A stretch of 64,000 nt of DNA from a marine gamma proteobacterium HTCC2080 (GTDB lineage: Bacteria > Pseudomonadota > Gammaproteobacteria > Pseudomonadales > Halieaceae): assembly GCA_000169115.1 (NCBI GenBank), contig AAVV01000011.1:1-64000 (forward strand), read 5' to 3'. Positions 37,567 through 42,284 of the stretch are shown here, one piece after another (the stretch's first letter is position 1; every line of letters starts with the position of its first letter). The notes below the pieces were generated by a model that saw nothing but the letters and a program-made list of their open reading frames with translations, was not told the origin of the DNA and did not search any database. The translations under genes were made by a program, and so were the position numbers.

Positions 37567-38214
37567 TCAGTACTTAGCGGGTAGCCGAGTATTGATAATA
37601 ATATGGCGACCTTCAAAGCGGATGTATTCTCCGATCGTCAGATCTTTAAGAATTCGAGCCACCATTTCACGGGATGCTCCCACGCGGTCAGCAATATCTT
37701 GCTGAGTGAGCTTCTCGGGTATGTACAAGGTACCGTCACCGCGCTCTTCAGACAGGTCCATCAGCACATTGGCCACCCTGCCATACACATCTTGCAGCGC
37801 CAGGCTCTTTACATCGGCCGTTAGCTTCCGGACTCGACCCGCCAAATTGCTAATTAGCTGGCGCGCAATGTTGGGATGCTCGTCGAGGACGCCGTTGAAG
37901 TCTTCCTTCATGACGACACGGAATTCACACTTCTCTACTGTGCGCACTGAGGCCGAACGCGTTGAGTCATCAAGTAAGGCCAGCTCACCGAAGTAATCTC
38001 CGGGACCTAACGTGTTCATAATAAATTCTTTACCGTTCTTATCGGAGCAGTAAACTTTGACCTTGCCACTTTCGATCACAAAAAGTGAATCCGCAGGATC
38101 GTTCTCATGAATCACGACGGTATTTTTAGGGAACGAGCGCGTACTCGAACTACTTTCCAGCGCTTGAAGCTCGCCGTCGTTGAGTCCATGAAAGATTTCC
38201 ACTTGGTTCAGCAT
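37567..38214 (-). CDS. CRP/FNR-family cyclic-nucleotide-type transcriptional regulator
   Basis: 215 residues: N-terminal cNMP-binding beta barrel with the phosphate-binding cassette FGELALLDDSTRSASV (Glu77, Arg86, Ser87 corresponding to Glu72, Arg82, Ser83 of E. coli CRP), a long C-helix, and an HTH (LTQQDIADRVGASREMVARI, 169-188). No FNR-type Cys cluster. Where CRP contacts adenine with Thr127/Ser128, this protein has Leu131/Thr132, so base preference may differ. It is divergent, 148 bases away, from a nucleotide cyclase operon, which suggests they form one circuit. Whether this organism also has a canonical Crp or Vfr elsewhere is unknown. Confidence 0.9.
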   Translation of the reverse strand: MLNQVEIFHGLNDGELQALESSSSTRSFPKNTVVIHENDPADSLFVIESGKVKVYCSDKNGKEFIMNTLGPGDYFGELALLDDSTRSASVRTVEKCEFRVVMKEDFNGVLDEHPNIARQLISNLAGRVRKLTADVKSLALQDVYGRVANVLMDLSEERGDGTLYIPEKLTQQDIADRVGASREMVARILKDLTIGEYIRFEGRHIIINTRLPAKY

Positions 38215-38324
38215 TTATATTCTTTCCTTGAAAACGGCTTAATGTTGCAATATTACCGCAAACAGTTAGTAATCCACCATCCCTAAGACACAGGAATGCA
38301 TTGAAATGCCGCTAGCTTTATCAT

Positions 38325-38344
38325 GTGACGTGAAATGAGCTCAC
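38325..38344. promoter_or_regulatory. CRP-like half sites ahead of the cyclase gene
   Basis: TGTGA at 38324-38328, GTGA at 38330-38333 and TCAC at 38341-38344 form an imperfect dyad GTGA-N7-TCAC. The consensus CRP site has GTGA-N6-TCAC, so the spacing is one base too long. It lies about 20 bases before the cyclase start codon, a position that would suit repression. Confidence 0.25.
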
Positions 38345-38362
38345 CAAAAACGAGGTGGCACG

Positions 38363-39811
38363 GTGGTTAAGCACTCCAATACTGAAGATCCATGGGCGTT
38401 AAAAGTGCTGGCTGCCGTCGCAGAACTGGGACCACAAAGATATTACGACCCCGTTATAACCAGCGAGGTTGTCAAAAATGACCTAGTTTCTCTAATCAGA
38501 GCCAGCCAAAAGCTGAAAGAGAAAGTCGCAATAGCGTCCCCTGAAGCCCGTCATGATCGCCGCAACATCATTGGTGCAATTCGAGGCTACTCCGAGATGT
38601 TGCTGGAAGATAGCGAGGTGCTACCCGCCGCCGTCAGAGCTCATTTGCTTCAAATATTGGCCGCAGCTAAAAATGAGCCGAAACCTGCGTCTGAATCAGC
38701 GACACCAACGAAATCTGTGACCCTACTACCCAGTGAGGAGCCCGGAGTCATTCTTGCCGTTGACGACCTCCCGGAGAATCGCGAGTTGGTATCACGACTG
38801 CTGCAGAAAACCGGCCATACGGTCATTTCGGCCGAGTCGGGTGAAGAAGCGCTTGAACTTCTCGATACCATGGGGGTCGACGTAGTGCTGCTCGACCTTG
38901 TCATGCCAGGAATTGGTGGGGCAGAGGTGCTAAAGCGTCTCAAAGAAGACGAGCGTCTGCGCGCAACACCGGTGGTGATGATCAGCGGGCAACAAGACAT
39001 GGACCAAATTGTCATGTGCATTGAGGCTGGCGCAGACGACTACCTACTAAAGCCTTTCAATCCCGTCTTGCTGCAAGCCAGAATCTCCGCAGGTATCGAA
39101 CGAAAGCGCTGGCATGACCGAGAAGAGCTTTACCGTGAACAGCTTGAGCGACGAGAGCAATTTATTCGCGCCACCTTTGGCCGCTACCTGTCGGACGATA
39201 TCGTCGACGAAATTCTCGAGCGACCCGAGGGGCTGGAACTTGGTGGTGACCTTCGTGAGGTCACAATCATGATGTCTGATATTCGCGGCTTTACGACGCT
39301 TGTAGAACACCTGCCACCGCAACAAGTCGTGACACTCCTCAATCGCTACCTTGGCCGTATGACCGAAATTATCCTTGAATTTGGTGGCACTATCGACGAA
39401 TTTCTTGGCGATGCAGTGCTCGCGGTATTTGGTGCTCCCCGCCGAAATGACGATGATCCAGATCGAGCCGTTCGTTGTGCCCTAGTGATGCAAGAAGCGA
39501 TGGCAGACATCAATATCGCAAACAGTGCCGATGGCCTTCCCGAAGTAGAAATGGCCATTGCCCTAAACACAGGATCGGTGGTCGCTGGTAATATTGGTAG
39601 TGAAAGACGTTCAAAATATGGATTTGTCGGTCATGCCATGAACGTCACCTCCCGTATCGAAGATGTTGCCAAGCCTGGCGAAATTCTCATCTCACAGACT
39701 ACCTATGAGAAGCTGGAAAGTGACTATAAGTTCGGCAACTCACGCTCCCTATCTGTGAAGGGCATTGAGGCAGAACTTCGGGTTCACGCCGTATTGGGAG
39801 GCATTCAATGA
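38363..39811 (+). CDS. Response regulator with C-terminal class III nucleotide cyclase domain
   Basis: 482 residues. An N-terminal helix pair with His64 in HDRRNIIGAIRGYSEMLLED resembles a histidine-kinase dimerisation helix but has no ATPase domain. A receiver domain follows (about 128-245; phospho-acceptor Asp178 in LLDLVMPG), then a coiled linker, then a class III cyclase (about 295-480). The metal Asp residues (Asp306 in SDIRGF, Asp350 in GD) and transition-state Asn427 and Arg431 are intact, so it should be active. The purine-selecting Lys is Glu346 and the partner position is Gly420, so ATP versus GTP use is uncertain. GTG start with GAGG upstream; its stop overlaps the next gene as ATGA. 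Confidence 0.9.
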   Translation: MVKHSNTEDPWALKVLAAVAELGPQRYYDPVITSEVVKNDLVSLIRASQKLKEKVAIASPEARHDRRNIIGAIRGYSEMLLEDSEVLPAAVRAHLLQILAAAKNEPKPASESATPTKSVTLLPSEEPGVILAVDDLPENRELVSRLLQKTGHTVISAESGEEALELLDTMGVDVVLLDLVMPGIGGAEVLKRLKEDERLRATPVVMISGQQDMDQIVMCIEAGADDYLLKPFNPVLLQARISAGIERKRWHDREELYREQLERREQFIRATFGRYLSDDIVDEILERPEGLELGGDLREVTIMMSDIRGFTTLVEHLPPQQVVTLLNRYLGRMTEIILEFGGTIDEFLGDAVLAVFGAPRRNDDDPDRAVRCALVMQEAMADINIANSADGLPEVEMAIALNTGSVVAGNIGSERRSKYGFVGHAMNVTSRIEDVAKPGEILISQTTYEKLESDYKFGNSRSLSVKGIEAELRVHAVLGGIQ

Positions 39812-40188
39812 CAACAAATATGAGCCGGCATTTACTGTTAGTAGAGGACAACGAGGTCAATCGCGAGATGCTACAGCGCCGACTACAGAGAGTCGGATAC
39901 ACCCTAGATTGCGCAGCTGATGGTCAGGAAGCACTCGACAAAATGCGCGATGTAAAACCTGCCCTTGTCTTATTAGATATCAATCTGCCCATCAAAGATG
40001 GTTGGACAGTCGTCAAGGAGGCTCGCTCAGATTCCGACATTCAAGACATTCCCATTATTGCCCTGACAGCACACGCCATGGAGAGCGATCGGCAGCAAGC
40101 ACTGGCGTCGGGGTGTCGAGATTATGCGACAAAACCTATCGACTTCCCCGAGCTGGTCATCAAAATAGAAAACTTGCTCACAGCATGA
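39808..40188 (+). CDS. Single-domain response regulator
   Basis: 126-residue receiver with no output domain. The acidic pocket is VEDN, the phospho-acceptor is Asp57 in LLDINLP, then ALTAHA with the switch Thr, and the Lys of TKPI. It resembles DivK/Spo0F-type phosphotransfer receivers. It is joined by ATGA overlaps to the cyclase gene before it and the kinase gene after it, so the three products are probably made in fixed proportion and pass phosphate among themselves. Confidence 0.92.
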   Translation: MTTNMSRHLLLVEDNEVNREMLQRRLQRVGYTLDCAADGQEALDKMRDVKPALVLLDINLPIKDGWTVVKEARSDSDIQDIPIIALTAHAMESDRQQALASGCRDYATKPIDFPELVIKIENLLTA

Positions 40189-41732
40189 AGCTTTCCCAAA
40201 CATCACTAAGCTTAAGAGCCCGCCTGTACCTGTTTTCAATGGCGATTCTGACACTGTTTGTGGTGAACGTGGCGACCCACCTGTGGGGAAGTTTTGCTCG
40301 CAGCGAGAGTTTAGTGGCTTATCGCGATGCCGCAGTAGCGGCTCAACTGGTTAACGACCTTCAGCAAGGCCTCGAATCAGCTCGTCAACAAACCCTTGTA
40401 TTAGCAACGCTTCGAGAGACCACTGACGAACCTTTGGGAGATGCCGAACGGGAAACAGCGACGGCCGAGCTCGACACCCTGCGGCAAAGACTGGGAAAGT
40501 TAGGTGCACTGGGAGGCGAGTCGACTGAGGACTACTACCGCAGGCTGTTTGACAGCGGTTCGCAACTTCTTGATGAATGGCAGGCCTTCTATAACAACTA
40601 CAATCGTTCAAGCAGCGAATCATCCGTAGAATCACCAGTTCAATATAACGACACCTGGCAAAAGCTCAACGAACTCGAGCAACGCCAGGAAGCGCTTGCT
40701 ATCGAGCGTTCCCGTACCATTGACGGCACCATCACGCTGACAGATCAGATTACCGTTATCGGCTTTATTACTACTATCGCGGTCACCATGCTGCTCGTTA
40801 TATTGCTGATTCGATCAACCAACTCCAGCCTTTTGCGGCTAAAAACCGGGGTTCAACGATTCGGCTCGGGTGACTTAAGCTACCGTATTGATGAGAACCG
40901 TGATGCCGGTGAAATACAGGATTTAGCACGAACCTTTAATGACATGTCTGGCAAGCTGTCGACGGCGATTGAAGAAGTTAATAGCTCTAAAGCCGATGCC
41001 GATGCCGCGAACGCTGCAAAATCAATGTTTTTAGCCAATGTTAGCCATGAACTGAGGACACCTCTCAACGCCATTATTGGCTACAGTGAGATGTTGCAAG
41101 ACGAGCTCGGCGACCCTGGAGAAGTTAACCGCGAACAAGTACAACACGATCTAGGCACCATTATTATTTCCGGACGGCAGCTGCTTGGTTTGATCAACGA
41201 GATTCTTGACCTGTCTAAAATAGAAACTGGAAAGATGCAGATCAACCTGGAGTCTTTTCAGCCAGCGGCGCATATCTTACAGGTGTGTGACGCGCTATCG
41301 CCCTTGTTGTCACAACATAAAAATACGCTAGAACTCAATCTCGTGGGTGCTGAGGGCCACACCATGCACAGTGACCCCGGTAAGTTGCAGCAAATTGTGA
41401 CCAACCTATTTAGCAACGCCTGTAAGTTTACCGACAACGGTACCATCGTTGTGGCTGCTGAGATCAGCCAAGACCAACTCACATTGACGGTAACTGATGA
41501 CGGTATCGGCATGACCGCCGAGCAACAGGGGCGAGTCTTTGACACCTTCGTTCAGGCGGAGGCTACAACAGGTACGAAATACGGTGGCACTGGCCTGGGG
41601 TTATCAATCGTTAAGGATTTTTGCGCAATGTTAGGTGGAGAGATCAGCTTGACCAGCGCGCCCGATGCCGGGTCGTGCTTCACTGTAACGCTTCCGACTA
41701 TTGGCCCAGCGTCAAATCTCGAAGCCGCTTAA
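40185..41732 (+). CDS. Membrane sensor histidine kinase
   Basis: 515 residues starting at the ATG that overlaps the previous stop. TM1 is at about 13-35, a roughly 150-residue mostly helical periplasmic sensor region follows, then TM2 at about 190-210, HAMP (to about 265), the dimerisation helix with His288 in SHELRTPLNAIIGYSEML, and an HATPase domain with N box (NLFSNACKFT), DDGIGM and GTGLGLSIV. Last gene of the operon. Its natural partners are the two receivers encoded just upstream. Its 3' end overlaps the convergent lipoprotein gene by 35 bases. Confidence 0.93.
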   Translation: MKLSQTSLSLRARLYLFSMAILTLFVVNVATHLWGSFARSESLVAYRDAAVAAQLVNDLQQGLESARQQTLVLATLRETTDEPLGDAERETATAELDTLRQRLGKLGALGGESTEDYYRRLFDSGSQLLDEWQAFYNNYNRSSSESSVESPVQYNDTWQKLNELEQRQEALAIERSRTIDGTITLTDQITVIGFITTIAVTMLLVILLIRSTNSSLLRLKTGVQRFGSGDLSYRIDENRDAGEIQDLARTFNDMSGKLSTAIEEVNSSKADADAANAAKSMFLANVSHELRTPLNAIIGYSEMLQDELGDPGEVNREQVQHDLGTIIISGRQLLGLINEILDLSKIETGKMQINLESFQPAAHILQVCDALSPLLSQHKNTLELNLVGAEGHTMHSDPGKLQQIVTNLFSNACKFTDNGTIVVAAEISQDQLTLTVTDDGIGMTAEQQGRVFDTFVQAEATTGTKYGGTGLGLSIVKDFCAMLGGEISLTSAPDAGSCFTVTLPTIGPASNLEAA

Positions 41733-42222
41733 GCGCCTCTTCGCGCTTTTCTAAATCTTCTGAGATCGCCTTATTTAACGCATCGAGTGCCTCAAGACGC
41801 CCTTCAAGAGTCTGCACTGCAGCCAACGCTAAAATCATCACCTCAGCACGCTCATCAACACCACTCGCTGCACTATCGGCCGTCGCAATGCTCGCCTCAC
41901 TCATCAACGTCACAAAGGCAATGCCAACATCAGCCTCACGCTGAGCCTCAGAGCCTGCCGAATCACGATGCCGTTCAAAGTAGGTGGCGGCCTGATCGTA
42001 GTCCCGCGCAGCTAAGGCGCGAACACCCCGGTCAAAATAATTTTCCGCCACGACAACCATCGCTTCGCAATCACAGCCAACAGCGAGAGGGTCAGGAAGG
42101 TTAAGCTCAACAGCAGAGACTTCGGGCTCGGGCTCAGGGGCCGCAGATTCAGGGCTCACACAGCCGGAAACAACGAGTAACGCGAAAATTACTATGGCAA
42201 AGCGTGAGCAGGTATGAGGCAA
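41698..42222 (-). CDS. Hypothetical lipoprotein
   Basis: About 174 residues. The signal ends in LLVVSGC, a strong lipobox, followed by a Pro/Glu-rich linker and a helical domain (VVAENYFDRGVRALAARDYDQAATYFERH) that looks like a single TPR-like repeat, and a C-terminal helix. The start is uncertain: TTG at 42222 gives a compact signal peptide (MPHTCSRF), while TTG at 42270 adds 16 residues. It is just downstream of lysS on the same strand. No function is recognised; it may belong to an envelope assembly. Confidence 0.7.
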   Translation of the reverse strand: MPHTCSRFAIVIFALLVVSGCVSPESAAPEPEPEVSAVELNLPDPLAVGCDCEAMVVVAENYFDRGVRALAARDYDQAATYFERHRDSAGSEAQREADVGIAFVTLMSEASIATADSAASGVDERAEVMILALAAVQTLEGRLEALDALNKAISEDLEKREEALKRLRDLTLGQ

Positions 42223-42284
42223 AACAGTCAGGCTCTTAAATTTTGTGTTTTGAGAATAGCACCCGCTCAACCCAGCGACCAGCG

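Follow-up and report, generated by a model that had tools for sequence, protein, structure and literature searches.

The window, a stretch of 64,000 nucleotides of contig AAVV01000011.1 from the marine gamma proteobacterium HTCC2080, carries a CRP-like regulator gene back to back with genes for a cyclase protein, a lone receiver and a membrane histidine kinase, and domain matches place all four where an earlier note on this DNA had put them. The regulator (37567–38214, minus strand; 215 aa) matches Pfam cNMP_binding (7.2e-28) and HTH_Crp_2, and a divergent intergenic region of 148 bp (38215–38362) separates it from the cyclase gene (38363–39811, plus strand; 482 aa). The product of the latter had been described as a receiver/cyclase fusion. 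Both domains are there, but a His-bearing N-terminal domain had been overlooked, and the chain consists of three parts rather than two: a DHp-like helical hairpin (residues 36–104; 38468–38674, plus strand) containing His64 (codon 38552–38554), a receiver (residues 130–241; 38750–39085, plus strand; Pfam Response_reg, 3e-29) whose phosphoacceptor Asp178 (codon 38894–38896) is kept in 89/89 loci, and a class III cyclase catalytic domain (39254–39784, plus strand) with Glu346 (codon 39398–39400) and Gly420 (codon 39620–39622). The lone receiver (39808–40188, plus strand; 126 aa) has Asp57 and Lys109 in all 70 family loci. The kinase (40185–41732, plus strand; 515 aa) contains a periplasmic sensor, a HAMP domain, HisKA with His288, and HATPase; its start is most likely the ATG at 40185, because a start at 40002, where the frame opens, would place it over the receiver gene and because the homologues of most loci begin to align within the first eight residues counted from 40185. 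The 3' ends of the kinase gene and of a small gene for a TPR-like lipoprotein (41698–42270, minus strand) overlap, and 37 of 40 long family loci have a homologue of the latter in this position. The domain search assigned this lipoprotein to no known family above cut-off, and QseG was rejected as a model for it, there being no match; a role as partner of the sensor is conceivable.

We searched 140 genomes of the family (Halieaceae), 123 of which have a cyclase match at threshold, and read 70 loci. Every one of the 78 near-complete family genomes has the cyclase, at a constant position amid housekeeping genes, and the regulator and cyclase genes are adjacent and divergent in 69 of the 70 loci, lying ~9 kb apart on one contig in the exception. 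Across a sample of 293 genomes of the order, counted by hand with a cyclase threshold of E below 1e-70, the regulator occurs in 52/52 genomes with a full-length cyclase versus 17/241 without it. The two genes are divergent neighbours in 37 of the 52 and unlinked in 14 (13 of family f21 and one of f8, several being draft assemblies), with one locus at a contig end. The earlier note had looked to conservation of this neighbourhood in relatives, which both samples bear out. In the f21 loci L135, L136 and L138, the regulator stays beside lysS (and xseA in L135), and the cyclase-receiver-kinase operon is elsewhere. Judged by its sequence conservation, this is a real, deeply conserved signalling locus.

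The N-terminal domain of the cyclase protein is predicted to form a helical hairpin over residues 36–104, with block-mean pLDDT values of 75–87 from residue 31 to 100. Searched with a profile of 39 such domains at an E limit of 10, the PDB gave eight matching sequences, one at 3.5e-05 and the rest between 0.03 and 0.6; seven are histidine kinases or sensor proteins by name and one is an 'ATP-binding protein' with the same H-box, and His is aligned on His in all four alignments shown. In addition, HisKA matched 21 and SPOB_a matched three of 29 N-terminal domains at E up to 5. Only four columns do not vary among the 39 domains, those of His64, Asn68, Gly75, and Glu78, against a mean column identity of 37%, and the conserved phosphoacceptor His of a Spo0-type His carrier is, by sequence alone, present. 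The box of His64 and Asn68 is intact in all 87 loci with the lone receiver (89 loci were scored), residue 65 being Asp in 75, Glu in 11, and Asn in one; the kinase was also found in 86 of these 87, and in the remaining one the contig ends. All four genomes read without the lone receiver and kinase have a broken box, and three of them have no His at this place. These four represent two lineages, f29 (G167 and G419) and f39 (G207 and G177). Positions 64, 65, and 68 of f29 are Leu, Arg, and Lys in G167 and His, Arg, and Arg in G419, with the surrounding region still aligning, and in both f39 genomes the N-terminal box region is missing. Beside the cyclase, none of the four genomes gave a receiver match of the lone type, and a genome-wide search found no full-length kinase orthologue in them, giving kinase-core matches only (1.9e-49 or weaker, from residue 138 at the earliest); the same search found full-length orthologues in 7/7 operon-bearing genomes (from residue 8 or before to at least residue 505, E 2e-84 or better). 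The fused receiver of f39 is without the acidic pair and Ser208, whereas f29 keeps these residues, and phospho-control appears to be lost in f39. The f39 loci L122 and L288 have neither lone receiver nor kinase, yet their cyclase keeps Glu-Gly and the divergent CRP.

These data bear on the route by which phosphate would reach Asp178. In a Spo0-like relay it would pass from the kinase through the lone receiver and His64. It is also quite possible that the kinase phosphorylates Asp178 directly, the hairpin only dimerizing the cyclase and the lone receiver acting as a phosphate sink. Direct transfer from kinase to receiver is the commoner arrangement, cyclases act as dimers, and the catalytic residues are intact in the kinase as well as in the two receivers. 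G419 has His at position 64 without the kinase and lone receiver, and we have lowered our estimate of the relay because of this retained His. What counts against a direct transfer is that His64 and Asn68 are invariant within an otherwise fast-changing domain, and that the region still aligns in f29 but its box has decayed where the receiver and kinase are gone. The persistence of the region while the box decays speaks against a mere dimerization role of the box residues, the decay alongside receiver and kinase loss being seen in two lineages only, with one of the four genomes retaining the His. What one would least expect of this locus is the proposed His carrier within the cyclase chain.

The C-terminal domain is a class III cyclase with the two metal Asp residues (Asp306 and Asp350), the transition-state residues Asn427 and Arg431, and a PF00211 match above cut-off. 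These four residues and the base-selecting pair Glu346 and Gly420 are as first noted, and all are invariant in the 70 family loci read, the window among them. In 19 genomes from other families of the order, the pair has Glu in 19/19 and Gly in 17/19, with Ala in the other two, and both Glu and Gly are present in two further genomes of other families. We read 35 further class III enzymes from the order, a chosen part of the matches in the order and family (37 loci were fetched, and L273 and L282 were dropped as unreadable); 30 have Lys, one has Arg, four have Glu-Ala, and none has Glu-Gly, position 420 being Thr in most. The best solved matches by sequence are the Cya2 phytochrome fusion (6fht) and Cya2 (2w01). 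The cyclase domain shares 46% identity with Cya2 over 183 residues, and the fold match to 2w01, with an rmsd of 1.1 Å over 190 columns at 45% identity, is ahead of CyaC and CyaB. Cya2 fell among the linked clade in the first tree; in the maximum-likelihood tree, rooted on CyaB, it is placed beside the linked clade with a moderate ultrafast bootstrap of 80, the linked clade alone having 66 (L122 was left out of the cyclase trees). The window cyclase thus has both the Glu-Gly pair and the grouping with Cya2 that mark the Cya2 type. The "non-standard base selectivity" proposed before has to be given up: Glu-Gly is not an odd pair, because Synechocystis Cya2, a proven bacterial guanylyl cyclase and the nearest solved relative in the structure-based comparison with characterized cyclases, has the same one. 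Cya2 is reported to carry the E-G pair and a Tyr that boosts GTP use (PMC4215837); the latter is Ser or Ala in these cyclases. The E488K change is described as conferring adenylyl cyclase activity on Cya2, with the wild-type fusion converting ATP only slightly (PMC5995499), and cya2 as contributing to cellular cGMP, not cAMP, levels (PMC4284465). Guanylyl cyclase activity of the window cyclase is likely, and cGMP is the likely messenger of the circuit.

We consider it somewhat unlikely, but with a sizeable chance, that the same circuit runs on cAMP, or on cAMP and cGMP together, serving both the linked CRP-like protein and a canonical CRP. The window genome has this cyclase as its sole class III enzyme, and no class I cyclase was found in it; in hand counts of the 78 near-complete family genomes, 44 have one class III cyclase only and none has class I. 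A canonical CRP (E up to 1e-40) is found in 68 of the 78; among the 44 with a sole class III cyclase, 36 have one. ATP use is possible, as the earlier note had cautioned, because the canonical CRP is kept in these 36 genomes and class I cyclases are absent from all 78; moreover, Cya2 itself is reported to have about equal affinity for both substrates (PMC4215837). Either cAMP would therefore come from this cyclase or from another enzyme, or the canonical CRP would have moved to cGMP. The Glu-Gly pair and Cya2 as tree neighbour argue against cAMP, as do the ten family genomes without a canonical CRP match, eight of which have the linked cyclase as their only class III cyclase; the linked cyclase is thus kept once the canonical CRP is gone. 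The canonical CRP of the window genome, P0001, scores 287.4 bits against the NF008732 cut-off of 266. This second CRP (L033:1171–1833, minus strand, genome contig C25) has Thr83 (RTA for RSA) and Thr-Thr at 127–128, and a third cNMP-binding protein of the genome, a 286-aa frame in L034, lies near a topoisomerase-like frame. Canonical CRPs were aligned in 31 rows, drawn from the 30 genomes with the best scores, with two rows for the window genome; all rows read Thr-Thr at 127–128, and at position 83 there are 13 with Thr and 18 with Ser. Thr at CRP position 83 is a change known from cGMP-binding domains. Thr-Thr is given as the motif by which Clr accepts both nucleotides (PMC10127613).

The linked regulator is the most conserved of eight neighbouring proteins, with a median identity to the window of 87.4%, compared with 80.8% for GuaB, 74.7% for LysS, and 59.7% for the cyclase (40 family loci, L035–L074, with 37 to 40 loci per protein). 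It scores 136.6 bits in the canonical CRP model NCBIfam NF008732, far below the cut-off of 266. Alignment with E. coli CRP confirms that the phosphate cassette is kept and that Leu131 stands in place of Thr127. Gly76, Glu77, Arg86, and Ser87, which make the phosphate and ribose contacts, are invariant in 69/69 family loci, and so are Leu131 (codon 37822–37824) and Thr132 at the positions of E. coli Thr127 and Ser128. Outside the family, all of 22 genomes, with duplicate loci counted once, have the Thr, and 21 have the Leu, which is Met in the other. The regulator is also Leu-Thr in the three read of the 17 genomes that have it without the linked cyclase. The cyclase was read in five of these 17 and is Lys-Thr in one (L145) and Glu-Ala in four (L144, L148, L158, and L160); the Glu-Ala enzymes are membrane class III cyclases. 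The Thr-Thr that Clr has in helix alpha5 is replaced by Leu-Thr, and the second Thr, described in Clr as contacting the N2-amine of cGMP across the dimer (PMC10127613), is kept. Leu131 had been taken as a hint of cGMP, but taken singly it does not show cGMP binding. T127L and T127I are reported as frequent among E. coli CRP* alleles, presumably with less cAMP needed (PMC2743635). A solved CRP structure with T127L/S128A is on record.

Nor was the suggested likeness to CgrA or Clr found, the gene order being divergent, with neither a TGTGA-N6-TCACA site nor Thr-Thr; CgrA was compared by gene order and promoter site. We scored 96 regulator/cyclase intergenic stretches, several genomes being represented twice, against the E. 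coli-type consensus, and judged by eye a conserved TGTGA-N6-TCACA site is absent from them, with best scores of 5 to 9 of 10 and the sole 9/10 in L041. The window shows no excess of such sites (20 matches versus 24.6 expected). A CRP site in the spacer was rejected, no position or sequence being constant across the stretches, and autoregulation is not claimed because there is neither a constant site nor an excess in the window. A link from cGMP to the regulator is plausible. It is improbable that the CRP-like protein works without a ligand or with a different one and is linked to the cyclase only incidentally: the frequency of T127L/T127I in CRP* alleles and the f21 regulators sitting away from the cyclase would fit, but the Gly, Glu, Arg, and Ser contacts are invariant in 69/69 loci and the regulator accompanies the cyclase in 52/52 genomes. 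An anti-phage Pycsar system, in which a cyclase has a dedicated toxic effector, can be dismissed as extremely improbable, for although the PycC model matches the cyclase (1.8e-22) and the PycTIR model the cNMP domain (1.4e-14), as expected because the folds are shared, no effector domain is seen, a DNA-binding regulator stands in its stead, and the cyclase is in 78/78 near-complete family genomes in a fixed housekeeping context.

The phospho-regulated cGMP circuit of the earlier note therefore survives as a well supported hypothesis through the Glu-Gly pair shared with Cya2, the linkage, and the co-occurrence, although not through CgrA likeness or the Leu131 argument. Our own reading, to which we give a little less than an even chance, is a Spo0-like relay running from the kinase through the lone receiver and His64 to Asp178 and the cyclase, with cGMP as the most probable messenger sensed by the CRP-like regulator. 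The membrane kinase would autophosphorylate at His288 on a periplasmic signal, and the phosphate would pass to Asp57 of the lone receiver, from there to His64 of the DHp-like domain in the cyclase protein, and then to Asp178 in that protein's own receiver; we infer this order of the phosphotransfer steps. The phosphorylated receivers would bring the cyclase domains into an active dimer that cyclizes GTP, and cGMP would switch the divergently encoded CRP-like protein, which would control genes elsewhere.

Bacterial cGMP signalling rests on few cases. It is an unlikely outcome when taken as a whole that many members of the family use cGMP, not cAMP, as the core cyclic mononucleotide, with a guanylyl cyclase ending a four-step relay that has a His carrier in the chain, and with the near-invariant CRP paralogue as a global regulator. 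If so, a cyclase in 78/78 near-complete genomes with its probable receptor adjoining in 69/70 loci would be a core pathway, testable in cultured strains, and the DHp/receiver/cyclase chain would be a new way of joining a phosphorelay to a cyclic nucleotide. For the genomes that have this cyclase as their sole class III enzyme, whether cAMP is missing can be asked sharply and easily. In a limited open-access literature, covered by titles and the starts of abstracts, we found no paper on Halieaceae cyclic GMP, a Luminiphilus adenylate cyclase, or a phosphorelay-guanylyl cyclase system, and absence from print is not claimed.

The Bacillus Spo0 phosphorelay consists of a kinase, a lone receiver, a DHp-like His carrier, and a receiver-output protein in the order His-Asp-His-Asp. 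The relay proposed here would have the same parts in the same order, but the window protein fuses the Spo0B-like carrier and the output in one chain, and its output is a cyclase. Cyanobacterial CyaC, a kinase/receiver fusion, is likewise a class III cyclase but makes cAMP as an adenylyl cyclase. A kinase-like protein is purported to phosphorylate and activate it (PMC4284465). Synechocystis Cya2 (2w01) shares the Glu-Gly base-selecting pair and is similar in the sequence and fold of the catalytic domain; however, it is described as a CHASE2-membrane-cyclase protein (PMC5995499), whereas the window protein has a DHp-like/receiver input, and the window cyclase has Ser where Cya2 has Tyr. In the case of Rhodospirillum centenum, CgrA is also a CRP homologue with linked cyclase genes, those of GcyB and GcyC, and cGMP, but cgrA is reported to share a promoter unit with gcyB-gcyC that follows a TGTGA-N6-TCACA site (PMC4681086), whereas the window genes are divergent and the site was not found between them. 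Compared with Sinorhizobium Clr, the window regulator keeps the Gly, Glu, Arg, and Ser contacts and the second Thr (T141), but has Leu for the first (T140), and in its recognition helix it has REMVAR, which is similar to the RE(T/M)VGR given for the main cluster (PMC10127613). Xanthomonas XC_0250/XC_0249 similarly links a guanylate cyclase to a cGMP-binding protein, but the effector there is described as a GGDEF protein and the transition-state Asn/Arg as replaced (PMC3770947), residues that the window cyclase keeps.
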